From assembly GCA_020720425.1 (NCBI GenBank), contig DYOP01000014.1, positions 1 to 34,081 of the forward strand: a stretch of 34,081 nt of DNA. The letters run 5' to 3'. Made by a program: the position numbers and the translations under genes. Each line of letters opens with the position of its first letter. Position 1 is the stretch's first letter. The notes beneath the pieces were generated by a model, which saw only the letters and a list, made by a program, of their open reading frames with translations, was not told where the DNA came from and did not search any database. Source of the DNA: Bdellovibrio sp. Lineage in GTDB: Bacteria; Bdellovibrionota; Bdellovibrionia; Bdellovibrionales; Bdellovibrionaceae. Of the stretch, positions 20,083 to 25,277 are shown piece after piece.

Positions 20083-20124
20083 GTTTTAAAATAATAAGCC
20101 TAAAAATAAACTGCATTTAAAAAT

Positions 20125-20222
20125 CCAGCATATGCACATGACGACCCTAAAAGTCGTGAAGCCCAATGCAGTGATCTTGATCTCAAATATACCGGTGAAG
20201 GGTAATCAAGTGGATATGCTGG
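20125..20222 (+). repeat. 98-bp imperfect palindromic element, copy 1
   Basis: The ends CCAGCATATGCACATGA (20125) and TCAAGTGGATATGCTGG (to 20222) pair in 15 of 17 positions. Inside, ACGAC pairs with GTCGT around a 7-nt loop, and GATC-TT-GATC forms a second small hairpin, so the single strand can form a multi-branched fold. It is matched along its whole length by copy 2 (25088-25185, opposite strand). It lies 3' of dcd. No transposase or known family is recognised. Confidence 0.85.
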
Positions 20223-20365
20223 TTAAAAATAAAATTCTAAATTTGACTTTAGTGATAGAACTCTTTCATCGGGAGCCCGAGTAACTCGCACCCCGAGAGA
20301 GGAGATGGCTATTTAATAATATCAATAAAGTCTAGCAGATAATCTTCTATTGAATAGAAAGGCCG

Positions 20366-23300
20366 TCAAAAACTCTGAGCCTCTTTTTCGGGATCTTCTT
20401 GGGGATCTTCTTCGCTTTCATCTTCATCAGGTTTTCCATCTTTTTTGCTACCCGAACTCATAATATCAGCAATGGCCGATAGAACTTCGCTAAACCCAAT
20501 CCTTGATAAGTTAATCTCCCATTCATCTTCTTTAGATTGCCAATCCAAAAATTCAATTGTTTCTAAAATTCCAGAGGGTAATTTTTTATTAACTAAAAGA
20601 TACGAGTAACCCCCGCGCAAAAAACTCTCGCCATCAACTCCTTTGGGAGCAAACTTTTTTAAAGTAGCTCTAAATACCGGGTAAGCTTCCATCGCCTCAA
20701 CTGTATTTAACTGGTTGTCATTATCGTGATCAAATCTAAACATTATAGCCTCGATGTACTGAAGAAGGTGCGGCACCAAAGAGTAATCGTCCTCACTCAC
20801 CCAAGGCCCCTTATCCTTCCAGCCGGTGGCTTTTAAGACAGAAAAAATAACTGGCAAAAAAGAGATGTCATCTAATTTCGAATACACCCGATAAGCATTG
20901 GGCATTTCAAGCAACACAGTTGAAAGATGCTCTTTATTTTTTTTGGCCCAACACTCCTTATCAACATAAACTTTTGCTTTTTTATCAGTTTTAATTGGAC
21001 ACTCTGACCTTAACGACGAACTAAAGGCCGCATGCCTTAAAACACCTGACCACATATATTGAGCAATTTGTATTGCCTCAGTAAAGTTTAATAGACTGTC
21101 ACCGTTAGAGCTTGGCAAAAACAAATTAGCTTCTAAAAATCTGTTTTTTGCAAAATCAATATCTTTTGGATTTAGCAATCCCATGGACTCAAATATTGGG
21201 GTTGCATCTTTATATAAACGAGTTACCTGATTTTCGGTCATTTGACAGCAGTCTTGATTTAACGAATACACTTGCATGATAGGCCTAAGCAGGGCTCTCC
21301 AAATGTTTTGATTTTGTAAATCGACAAATGCAAATTTGGCCTTTTTACCTTGATCAAATACCAATAACCCAGAGGTATCTGATTTTAATATATAACTTGG
21401 TTTTACCCATAAATCAGATAACTCGGCTTTTAAAGTTTTAGATGATATTTGACCTAAGCTAACTTTAATTTTTTTAGGCGTTAAATCCTGAGGATTAAGA
21501 CTTAGTATCCAATCATTAATAGATTTAAAGTCACCCCATATTTCATTTAATTTTCGAACATGAGCCATTTCTAGCCCCTGTACCGGTATCTTTTTTTTAT
21601 GATTTTCAATGGGCCACAAAACTTTTTCTAATAAAAGTGTGACCGATTTTTTTAGCTCTTCTGGTCCAAATGATCCCATGTCTATCAGCTGCGAAAAATA
21701 AGCCGCATCTATTAATTTATTAATTTGAATAAAAGATAACTTGCCCTGACTGTTGTCAATTAACTGGCTTAAACGATTTGATAGTTTTTTAAACATTAAA
21801 TCATGCTCTTGGGTGCCCAGCCTCCAAGTGGCGGCTTTTTGAAAACGATAAAAATAATGTAAATAATCAGCAAAGGCTCCAGAGAAAAACTTTAAAGCCG
21901 TATGCCAGTCTTTTTTATTTAATACAGGGCTTGATTTACCAGCTGCGATCTGCAGAGCCTCAATAATAAAGGGTAACTTTTGCTTAAACTGATTGAGCGC
22001 TGAACGCTCTTTAAGTTCCAAATTAACAGACAAGCTGATCTCGTCAAATAAAACATAAAGGTTTTCTAAATCATACTCGGACTCAAAAATACCACCCATT
22101 TCTTGACCCAATTGCTCTAGATCTAAAGCCGCTTTTGCTAATTGCTCTTGCTCCTGAGAACTTAGCGGATATGCTGTTACCCAAGTCAAAAAATAAATAT
22201 CAGAATACTGATACAATTTATCACTTAAAGTAGATAAGAGCTTAAGTTTATCTCTTCCGCGCTCAAACTCATTGCTTGCAATGGATGTATCCTTACCCCC
22301 TAATATCCATTTTTTAACCTTCAAAACTTGTTCAGCCAGCTTGGGCGAAAAGCGAAGCTCCGGAAAAATGGTAACAAGCGATTCAAGGGATTCTTTTAAC
22401 TCCAAAGAAGTTAGCTCTTTATTTGGTTTTTTTGAAAGAGTTTCGGAAAGGTAAGAAAATAAACTGTCTAACGAATCAAATAAAAAAACCATATCATATT
22501 TAGCAAACTCAGACGGAACATTTTTAATAAAATAATAATATCTTAAATATTGAAGGTAGCCACCAGATAAAAGCATGGAAAAGCTTTCCCACTCTTGGCC
22601 ACCCACGTCTTGAGCTTGCCCGCCAATAAGAGTTTTTTTAATTTTTTCAACAAGTGGTAAATATTTTTGTATCTGCTCAAGCAAAGTCCAATTTTTACCG
22701 TAAAGGTTGCCCATCTCTTTCAAAAGAACTATAAGATCAGAGATTTTATATCCTTTTTCGTTTTTCTTGATTTGCCCAGCCATCACGGTAACAAATTTAT
22801 TAAACCCGTTTTGAGCTAAATTAAATTTATTAATTTGCTCAGACACATCTAGTTTTTTATCCATTTTCCAATTTATAGAAATAACTGACATATAGGGTAA
22901 CACATCCAGTGAGGCTTGACGGGCTACGTCTGAATAGCGAATTAGGTCTTTAAGCTCTTGCTTGGTTAAAGAATTAATATCCCCGCCAACAATAAGTTGT
23001 TTAATTTTCATTATTTCCACCCGAAGAGTGGGGGATAAAACTAAACCATCAAAAAAATAATCTTCAAAAAATTTAGCCAACTCATCTGAAGAGTAAACTC
23101 CGTTATTAGTTCCTTTAACTTTTTTATAAAAAAGTTCTAAGCCGTTAGAAAAACATTTCCAAGTGCTATCAATTTGACTTGGCTCTGCTGTTCCATTCAT
23201 AAACCCTGACATAACAGGGAGAACATTGTTTAAACATTTTGGCTCAAAATCAAGCTTGGCCTGAGGGGCCACCTCTTCAGGAGGAGGTTCAAAAATAGGC

Positions 23301-23377
23301 AAAGAACAGCTTTGAGCAAAAATAACAAGAAGGCTTAATAAAAATTTTATAGCTAAGGAGTAAGTTTTAAAAAACAT
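20366..23377 (-). CDS. 1003-aa lipoprotein of EF-hand-like repeats
   Basis: A lipoprotein signal ends FAQSC (Cys24). One near-canonical EF-hand loop (DHDNDNQLNTVE, 883-894) is followed by a helix. At least six degenerate loops share a GG/N-rich start, a hydrophobic at position 8 and an acid at position 12: 88-99, 130-141, 251-262, 315-326, 359-370 and 479-490. Loops at 130, 251, 359 and 479 recur every 108-121 residues. Each is followed by helices, two of them aromatic-rich (YLQYLRYYYF, YLHYFYRF). The end is a very acidic tail (DEDESEEDPQEDPEKE). Calcium binding is likely for the 883 loop; the others may be structural. It overlaps the upstream barrel gene by 11 bp. No family is recognised. 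Confidence 0.85.
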   Translation of the reverse strand: MFFKTYSLAIKFLLSLLVIFAQSCSLPIFEPPPEEVAPQAKLDFEPKCLNNVLPVMSGFMNGTAEPSQIDSTWKCFSNGLELFYKKVKGTNNGVYSSDELAKFFEDYFFDGLVLSPTLRVEIMKIKQLIVGGDINSLTKQELKDLIRYSDVARQASLDVLPYMSVISINWKMDKKLDVSEQINKFNLAQNGFNKFVTVMAGQIKKNEKGYKISDLIVLLKEMGNLYGKNWTLLEQIQKYLPLVEKIKKTLIGGQAQDVGGQEWESFSMLLSGGYLQYLRYYYFIKNVPSEFAKYDMVFLFDSLDSLFSYLSETLSKKPNKELTSLELKESLESLVTIFPELRFSPKLAEQVLKVKKWILGGKDTSIASNEFERGRDKLKLLSTLSDKLYQYSDIYFLTWVTAYPLSSQEQEQLAKAALDLEQLGQEMGGIFESEYDLENLYVLFDEISLSVNLELKERSALNQFKQKLPFIIEALQIAAGKSSPVLNKKDWHTALKFFSGAFADYLHYFYRFQKAATWRLGTQEHDLMFKKLSNRLSQLIDNSQGKLSFIQINKLIDAAYFSQLIDMGSFGPEELKKSVTLLLEKVLWPIENHKKKIPVQGLEMAHVRKLNEIWGDFKSINDWILSLNPQDLTPKKIKVSLGQISSKTLKAELSDLWVKPSYILKSDTSGLLVFDQGKKAKFAFVDLQNQNIWRALLRPIMQVYSLNQDCCQMTENQVTRLYKDATPIFESMGLLNPKDIDFAKNRFLEANLFLPSSNGDSLLNFTEAIQIAQYMWSGVLRHAAFSSSLRSECPIKTDKKAKVYVDKECWAKKNKEHLSTVLLEMPNAYRVYSKLDDISFLPVIFSVLKATGWKDKGPWVSEDDYSLVPHLLQYIEAIMFRFDHDNDNQLNTVEAMEAYPVFRATLKKFAPKGVDGESFLRGGYSYLLVNKKLPSGILETIEFLDWQSKEDEWEINLSRIGFSEVLSAIADIMSSGSKKDGKPDEDESEEDPQEDPEKEAQSF

Positions 23378-24857
23378 AGCTCACCCCGCCTGACACTCGA
23401 TCGTTGGTCCTAAATTGATTAAAAAATCCGGGGTCTGTATTTGCCCCCGAGATATCATCAACCCCTAAAATATCAGCTGCAACAAAAACCCCTAACTGCT
23501 TGTTAACTTGCAAACTTGAACCAACAGATAATAAAGTACCTTTTTGTTCAAACTCTCTCATCCATAAAAAATGAGAGTGAATAGACTTTCCAAAGAGAGT
23601 ACTTAGCATAGATATTTTTGATTTGAAGGCATGGTTCCACGAAAAACGATAGGGCAATAAACTCCCTCTATTAACCCCTTTTGAGTCTTTGTCCATTGAG
23701 GGCGTGTGATTAATTTGCAAGTAACCTAATTCGTAATTAAAAGTTCTTCCACTTTTTAATGCCCAGCTGTCGTTCCATTTAACCGCCCCGCCAAATATAG
23801 GCTCTGGAGATTGACTAATCCAATCCGAAGCAGGCTCACCATCAGAGTCCAACATGTTTGTGGGCAAGGGGGTTGAGGTTTGATCCCCAAAAAAACTTAA
23901 CGTTAATTTAGCATCACTAAAATGAATCCCTGATTCGATGGTTAGAACATCATGATATGAAATCGAAGGAACCACGGTTACCTCAGCCTGAGAAAAAACA
24001 CTTGAAACAGCTAAGTCGTAGTCATACTTAACTGAAAGCTGATTTAATGGCTTATGAGCTACAGCTAAATTAAACCAGGGACCACGCCCTAATTGCCCAT
24101 GTCGATTGTAACTTATGCTGGCCCCAGCAGATACTTGCTGCACTAAAGCTGCCAATTCGGGCATATCCAGTTTATAATTAAATTGCATTTGCTTGTCTAA
24201 AACAAGGCCCGATGTGACCGGAGTTTTATGCCAGCGAGACTGGGCCACTAAGGCCCCATCTTTTTCGGCAATCTCGGGGCCAAAAGTGGGCATAAATAGG
24301 GGCGAGGCAAAAATAAGCCAGCTCCAAGCCTGACTTTGCTTTGAGCTAAAAAAAGCTCCCACTAAGCCTTGATGAAAAGGGCGCAAAGGATCAATGTTAC
24401 CCAAAGGCTGCCAAAGACCTAGGTTCCAGTCCTCGTCAAACTCGGCCCAATTTGATAGTTTTCGGCCAACATCAAGGTCCCAGTTTTGAAAGCTCTTATG
24501 CCAATAAATCTCCTGAACATAAAAATAAGAAGAATTAATATTAATCGCTGTTGCCCCCGCCAGATTAACTCCCCAGTAACCCCTGGGCCCTGTATTAAAG
24601 GTGCCATTGATTTGGGCTTTAAGATAATCTGTCTTAGATATGGGGGTCCCCTTTAATGGGCTTAAATAACTATGAGTTTCGTACTCTAAAAAACTTGAAA
24701 AATGATGATCACGGGGCGGCTGTTTGTGCTGATCCTGTAGGGAAATGTCAAAATAGACCGAGTTAAGATCTAAATCCTTTGAGGGCTTAGCTAATAAATA
24801 TGATGGCCCCATTACTAAAGTCACCATAAGGCTAAATCTATTTAAAAATCTTTTCAC
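23367..24857 (-). CDS. Outer-membrane beta-barrel protein
   Basis: This 496-aa protein has a Sec signal (MKRFLNRFSLMVTLVMGPSY, ending LLAKPS). The body has many short aromatic/polar alternating strands with Gly/Asn/Asp turns, for example GYWGVNLAGATAININSSYF. It ends RVSGGVSYVF, a classic beta-barrel C-terminal signal with final Phe. Length suits a 14-18 strand barrel. It overlaps the EF-hand lipoprotein by 11 bp, so the two are probably made together and may form a complex at the outer membrane. No specific porin family is recognised. Confidence 0.88.
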   Translation of the reverse strand: MKRFLNRFSLMVTLVMGPSYLLAKPSKDLDLNSVYFDISLQDQHKQPPRDHHFSSFLEYETHSYLSPLKGTPISKTDYLKAQINGTFNTGPRGYWGVNLAGATAININSSYFYVQEIYWHKSFQNWDLDVGRKLSNWAEFDEDWNLGLWQPLGNIDPLRPFHQGLVGAFFSSKQSQAWSWLIFASPLFMPTFGPEIAEKDGALVAQSRWHKTPVTSGLVLDKQMQFNYKLDMPELAALVQQVSAGASISYNRHGQLGRGPWFNLAVAHKPLNQLSVKYDYDLAVSSVFSQAEVTVVPSISYHDVLTIESGIHFSDAKLTLSFFGDQTSTPLPTNMLDSDGEPASDWISQSPEPIFGGAVKWNDSWALKSGRTFNYELGYLQINHTPSMDKDSKGVNRGSLLPYRFSWNHAFKSKISMLSTLFGKSIHSHFLWMREFEQKGTLLSVGSSLQVNKQLGVFVAADILGVDDISGANTDPGFFNQFRTNDRVSGGVSYVF

Positions 24858-25087
24858 AGCTTGATCAAACCCTAGAGTCAGGAAATGGTCAAGCCCCCTG
24901 AATTTAAAGCATTAAACAACTTTAAATGACATTAAGCCTGTAAAAAAAACGTATAAATAATGTCTACATTTTAAACTCAGGTGTTATTTCTTGTTGTTGT
25001 TTCTGAGTGATTATGCCTTTTAACTTGTGAAATCAAGTTTTATACTAAGTTTTATACGCTTTATAAACTAGGGCTATTAAAAATTAA
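24858..25087. other. Regulatory gap upstream of the barrel gene
   Basis: With copy 2 of the 98-bp element and the heptamer array, this fills the 422-bp gap 24858-25279. AAGTTTTATAC is repeated exactly at 25035-25045 and 25047-25057 with a 12-bp period. On the minus strand this gives two TATAAA cores facing the barrel gene, so it may be a doubled -10 region or an operator. The AT-rich DNA between 24858 and 25034 holds no gene that I see. Confidence 0.4.
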
Positions 25088-25185
25088 CCAGCATATGCAC
25101 TTGATTACCCTTCACCGGCATATTTGAGCTCAGGATCACTACATTGGGCTTCACGACTTTTAAGGTCGTCATGTGCATAAGCTTG
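25088..25185 (-). repeat. 98-bp imperfect palindromic element, copy 2
   Basis: On the minus strand this matches copy 1 over its full length, with about ten substitutions. The outer pairing is kept in 14 of 17 positions and the ACGAC/GTCGT hairpin in full; one mismatched pair in copy 1 is a normal G-C pair here. The GATC hairpin of copy 1 becomes TGAGCTCA. It lies about 95 bp 3' of maoC on the same strand, so both copies follow a gene in the same sense. Confidence 0.85.
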
Positions 25186-25200
25186 AAATTAATATCTGTG

Positions 25201-25277
25201 TTCTGTATTCTGTGTTCTATGTTCTATGTTCTATGTTCTATGTTCTATGTTCTATGTTCTATGTTCTGTGTTCTGAG
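25201..25277. repeat. Heptanucleotide tandem array
   Basis: Eleven contiguous 7-bp units occur: TTCTGTA, TTCTGTG, seven identical TTCTATG units, TTCTGTG and TTCTGAG. The array begins 15 bp after the 98-bp element and ends 2 bp before the maoC stop codon. The identical centre with variant edges is typical of replication slippage. Confidence 0.95.

Follow-up and report, generated by a model that had tools for sequence, protein, structure and literature searches.

Among described mobile elements, the closest counterparts of the 98-bp repeat analysed here are two MITEs, that is, elements shorter than ~600 bp that lack a transposase gene, carry terminal inverted repeats, occur in dispersed copies and are flanked by target-site duplications of fixed length. 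MITEs of IS1595 origin that make 8-bp duplications have been described before. The one derived from ISHwa6 in Haloquadratum walsbyi is 165 bp long and occurs in seven copies, with 25-bp inverted repeats and 8-bp direct repeats (PMC3852290). An 8-bp duplication is the rule for the IS1595 family (PMC8101967), and AT-rich duplications of this length have been measured for its member ISEc69 (PMC7835479). The element described here resembles the ISHwa6 derivative in being small and gene-less, in its copy number, in its terminal repeats of ~25 bp, in its 8-bp duplications and in its putative IS1595 affiliation. It differs in its bacterial rather than archaeal host, in its length of 98 bp and in that its exact parent was not found. 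With the 113-bp MITEAba12 of Acinetobacter it shares size, structure, AT-rich target sites and a mobilisation in trans that is inferred from shared ends; in contrast, MITEAba12 has 9-bp duplications, and its parent ISAba12, with 16-bp ends, is co-resident (PMC6382973).

The window, a 34,081-bp stretch of a Bdellovibrio sp. genome, contains two inverted copies of the element. Both lie exactly where the initial annotation had placed them, and the inverted match that it described is confirmed by an ungapped alignment with 90 of 98 positions identical (91.8%). The pair forms by far the longest inverted repeat within the window, and the match greatly exceeds chance expectation: when copy 1 and its flanks served as query against the genome, copy 2 was recovered at E = 2e-37. 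The features of the two copies are as follows.

20125 to 20222, + strand: probable MITE, copy 1, 98 bp, one of nine genomic copies
20125 to 20148, + strand: terminal inverted repeat at the left end of copy 1, CCAGCATATGCACATGACGACCCT, set against the opposite repeat and the IS1595 ends of related genomes
20199 to 20222, - strand: right terminal inverted repeat of copy 1, reading inward CCAGCATATCCACTTGATTACCCT
20117 to 20124, + strand: left 8-bp target-site duplication of copy 1, TTAAAAAT, the same as 20223 to 20230
20223 to 20230, + strand: right 8-bp target-site duplication of copy 1, TTAAAAAT
25088 to 25185, - strand: probable MITE, copy 2, 98 bp, one of nine genomic copies
25081 to 25087, + strand: target-site duplication of copy 2, low-coordinate side, AAATTAA, the same as 25186 to 25192
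25186 to 25192, + strand: target-site duplication of copy 2, high-coordinate side, AAATTAA

A search of all 203 contigs of the 2.6-Mb assembly, which the initial annotation had proposed, recovered seven further copies. The resulting nine copies are spread over seven contigs (C14:20125 and C14:25088, both in the window; C118:15271, C118:22170, C117:19921, C19:1451, C131:11247, C197:25849 and C97:4964) and are 86-94% identical to the window copy. Copy C97:4964 is interrupted by the contig end, and additional copies may thus be missing in assembly gaps. Full-length copies measure 96-98 bp and contain no transposase gene, and all nine are intergenic. Pairwise divergence amounts to 6-14%, with three to seven substitutions in each copy relative to the consensus, a star-like pattern that fits a single burst some time ago. 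An open reading frame across the palindrome was dropped because gaps of one or two bases in other copies disrupt the frame. Likewise, a short match on C161 (L010) and matches with two mismatches on C94 and C117 of the same genome were judged not to be ends of the element.

The terminal repeats are 24 bp long with three consensus differences, and conform to CCAGCATATGCAC[A/T]TGA[C/T][G/T]ACCCT, from which individual copies deviate at 0-2 positions. The target-site duplications that had been suggested as a check are present: flanking direct repeats match at 8/8 positions in four copies (window copy 1, C118:15271, C117:19921 and C19:1451), at 7/8 in C118:22170 and at 7/7 in window copy 2, which has kept seven of the eight bases expected. 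In two of the eight testable copies the duplication is poor or ambiguous (6/8 at C197; an AT repeat at C131). Flank identity is maximal exactly at a length of 8 (mean 0.80, versus 0.66 at 7 and 0.56 at 9), and of 200,000 trials in which the flank partners were shuffled among copies, 30 reached the observed total. The duplications are 97% A+T. Inverted repeats, 8-bp duplications and AT-rich sites are the marks of transposition.

Judged from its sequence features, the element is very probably a MITE that an IS1595-family transposase has moved, and the window copies are two independent insertions. The mobile-repeat reading that the initial annotation had offered as one option is borne out by the nine copies, the terminal inverted repeats, the 8-bp duplications and the related ends on IS1595 transposons. 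The assignment to this family follows from the 8-bp AT-rich duplication and from an end class found on IS1595 elements whose transposase matches PF12762 and PF12760. BLAST with the 98-bp sequence against 60 related genomes, plasmids and phages gave no match outside the window's genome, and kin were reached only by end-pattern searches, with mismatched ends in 141 genomes of the order and with a generalised pattern in 66 genomes of the family.

The most complete of these relatives is an intact 952-bp IS1595 in genome G029 (L092:111-1062). Its transposase of 291 residues matches the profiles Zn_ribbon_IS1595 (PF12760, E=5e-9), DDE_Tnp_IS1595 (PF12762, E=3e-19) and transpos_IS1595 of NCBIfam (NF033547, E=3e-34). 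Its ends read CCTACCTATGCAC[C/T]TGACGCC, also written CCTACCTATGCAC[C/T]TGACGCCGG, and the sequences flanking it on the two sides do not match. The ends of the 98-bp element are like those of this intact IS at 16 of 22 positions and like those of IS1595 derivatives in G034 and G088 at 16 of the first 18, which places them in the same class without being identical; the motif common to the element and the IS1595 ends is CC..C.TATGCAC.TGAC. The derivative in G034 (C189; L065:1501-1773) is an internally deleted IS1595 of 273 bp with ends CCTGCATATGCACTT[G/A]ACTGG, also written CCTGCATATGCACTT[G/A]ACTGGCCC, and an exact 8-bp duplication, TAAGTATA. At its start, the reading frame resembles the Zn-ribbon of IS1595 transposases, with a PF12760 match (E=4e-5) that falls slightly short of the curated cut-off. 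The frame then switches to an apparent C-terminal transposase piece, so that the element looks like an internal deletion caught half-way between IS and MITE. The one in G088 is a degenerate IS1595 with an end CCTGCATATGCACTTGACTGG and ends of the form CCTGCATATGCACTTGA[C/T]TGG.

Short elements with ends of this class also occur in related genomes. G003 carries a 107-bp palindromic MITE with ends CCAGCTTATGCACATGGCTACC and the duplication TAAATAAA, and G123 a MITE of ~98 bp with ends CCAGCATATGCACATGACTGACC and the duplication TTTATTTA. A further MITE of G003, 106 bp long and with ends CCTACCTATGCACATGACGCC, is present in ~40 nearly identical copies, apparently a recent burst, and shows exact 8-bp duplications in all six copies inspected (L124, L131, L135, L137, L140 and L143). 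The 106-bp MITE and the 107-bp and 98-bp ones (L063, L070) resemble the element of the window in end class (CC[T/A][A/G]CNTATGCACATG), size and 8-bp duplications, but have an unrelated centre. The G003 copies differ furthermore in being nearly identical and in having less AT-rich duplications. A small MITE family, together with related MITEs and deletion derivatives and their IS1595 relatives, is added to a bacterial family for which the literature searched held no earlier MITEs of this kind. The series from intact IS through 273-bp deletion derivative to ~100-bp MITE illustrates how such elements originate; otherwise, this is ordinary mobile DNA.

In mechanistic terms, the element would be a non-autonomous IS1595 derivative that has kept little beyond its two terminal inverted repeats. 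An IS1595-type transposase with Zn-ribbon and DDE domain, acting in trans, would recognise the ends CCAGCATATGCACWTGA and shift the 98-bp DNA into AT-rich intergenic sites, leaving the 8-bp duplications behind. A single IS1595 transposase was found in the window's genome (C110:3466-4182). It shares 92% identity with its G029 counterpart along 239 residues, contains an in-frame TAG and lacks its 3' part. It retains one end, CCTACCTATGCACCTGACGCC, and a lone end of the same type lies at C116:22389. The ends of this relic differ from those of the element at 6 of 22 positions, making it a cousin of the element and not a proven driver. No working transposase or autonomous parent with identical ends was found in the 203 contigs, an IS combining exact CCAGCATATGCAC ends with an IS1595 gene was absent from every genome searched, and no trace of a transposase gene is obvious in the middle 50 bp of the element. 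Since a MITE may persist after its parent is gone, a co-resident parent is not required, and its absence lowers certainty on the parent only. We infer that the element was mobilised in trans by an IS1595 with matching ends that has been lost or was not assembled, and that the family is presumably immobile in this genome today.

Since 8-bp duplications are not exclusive to IS1595, and since no parent with identical ends was found, the element might alternatively have been mobilised by another IS family that makes such duplications, for example ISL3, IS66 or ISAs1, with a fortuitous resemblance of the ends. We consider this unlikely, given that the ends share CC..C.TATGCAC.TGAC with IS1595 and its deletion derivatives in the same bacterial family. 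Moreover, the end motif is rare elsewhere: the exact pattern has two matches in 257 billion bases of GTDB representatives and one in IMG/VR, about chance level, with no second end nearby.

Less probable still is that the palindrome is a structured RNA or a REP-type element selected at gene 3' ends as terminator, RNA stabiliser or regulator; an RNA element had been the other option of the initial annotation. The 17-bp outer stem that it described exists in both window copies, but each contains unpaired differences (G for C in the right arm of copy 1; CAAGCT for CCAGCA in the left arm of copy 2). The folding energy is low for copy 1 (z -3.3), which folds better than shuffles, and unremarkable for copy 2 (z -1.5). 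The further statement that differences leave pairing intact fails across the nine copies. A covariation check over all of them revealed no compensatory change in any of 20 named or 27 predicted pairs, variation in the outer stem mostly leaves simple mismatches, and the inner 4-bp stem is invariant and hence uninformative on compensation. The lack of compensatory pairs gives no support for a selected RNA, in contrast to another hairpin family of the same genome in which compensatory change is abundant (see below). Rfam searches gave no match over the element, only weak spurious ones, and target duplications and transposon-type ends account for the palindrome. REP/BIME sequences are extragenic palindromes of 20-40 bp that are mobilised by RAYT, a Y1 transposase, without target duplication; the present element is 98 bp long and has 8-bp duplications.

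Consistent with an RNA or REP function, every copy sits between genes, seven of them on the 3' side of a gene. The position behind a gene on the gene's own strand, claimed for the window pair, holds there (Pfam matches bear out the identity of the neighbouring genes, dcd and maoC) and for four of the nine copies overall (C14:20125, C14:25088, C118:15271 and C118:22170), but is not general: three copies are in opposite orientation behind the gene (C19, C131 and C197), that on C117 lies between divergent genes, which argues against such a function, and that on C97 is upstream of a gene at the contig end. Copies close behind stop codons follow dcd, a ttcA-like gene and the gene before C118:22170. 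There is a slim chance that such copies have been domesticated for regulation and retained to terminate transcription in both directions or to stabilise mRNA 3' ends. Adjoining copy 2, before the maoC-like gene, a microsatellite of 7-bp units (TCTATGT, ~11 copies) occupies window positions 25195-25274.

The inverted arrangement of the window copies around positions 20366-24857 had also suggested that they are the ends of a composite transposon carrying the lipoprotein genes, which the flanks refute. A composite transposon has a single target duplication outside its pair of ends, whereas here a separate duplication encloses each window copy and the outer flanks of the pair disagree (TTAAAAAT and AAATTAAT, the 8-mers farthest out, are identical at 4/8 positions), indicating separate insertions; in addition, the remaining copies of the element are solitary. 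Thus, the lipoprotein genes are not carried by the copies, and the convergence of the copies around them is incidental. For the two large genes in this interval, of 1003 and 496 aa, Pfam gave no match at E 0.01. Finally, a merely local duplication, as the distance of only 5 kb between the window copies might suggest, is refuted by the seven copies on other contigs.

Outside the window, the same genome harbours a second repeat family at 53 places, with a conserved core of ~48 nt, CTCA[A/T]GCGC..GC[A/T]TGCAGAGGCCAKGGATGGCCGTG, also given as GCAGAGGCCAKGGATGGCCGTG (for example L170 at C161:9994-10104, L171, L174, L176 and L177). Its arms of at least 26 bp vary in sequence between copies and are complementary within most copies. 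Pairing over 26 bp is 100% in 9 to 10 of 23 copies and 96% in four more, and the mean pairing of ungapped arms is 0.77 within copies versus 0.60 across copies. Many pairs switch among A-T, T-A, G-C and C-G, which constitutes abundant compensatory change. The family has no Rfam match and, with one weak place in 39 relatives, essentially no counterpart there; it is possibly a structured RNA or a REP-like hairpin. This second family is more striking than the 98-bp MITE and probably of greater worth. Furthermore, an identical direct repeat of at least 170 bp is present at C117:6740 and C117:10619, its two units separated by 3.9 kb (L043 and L044).
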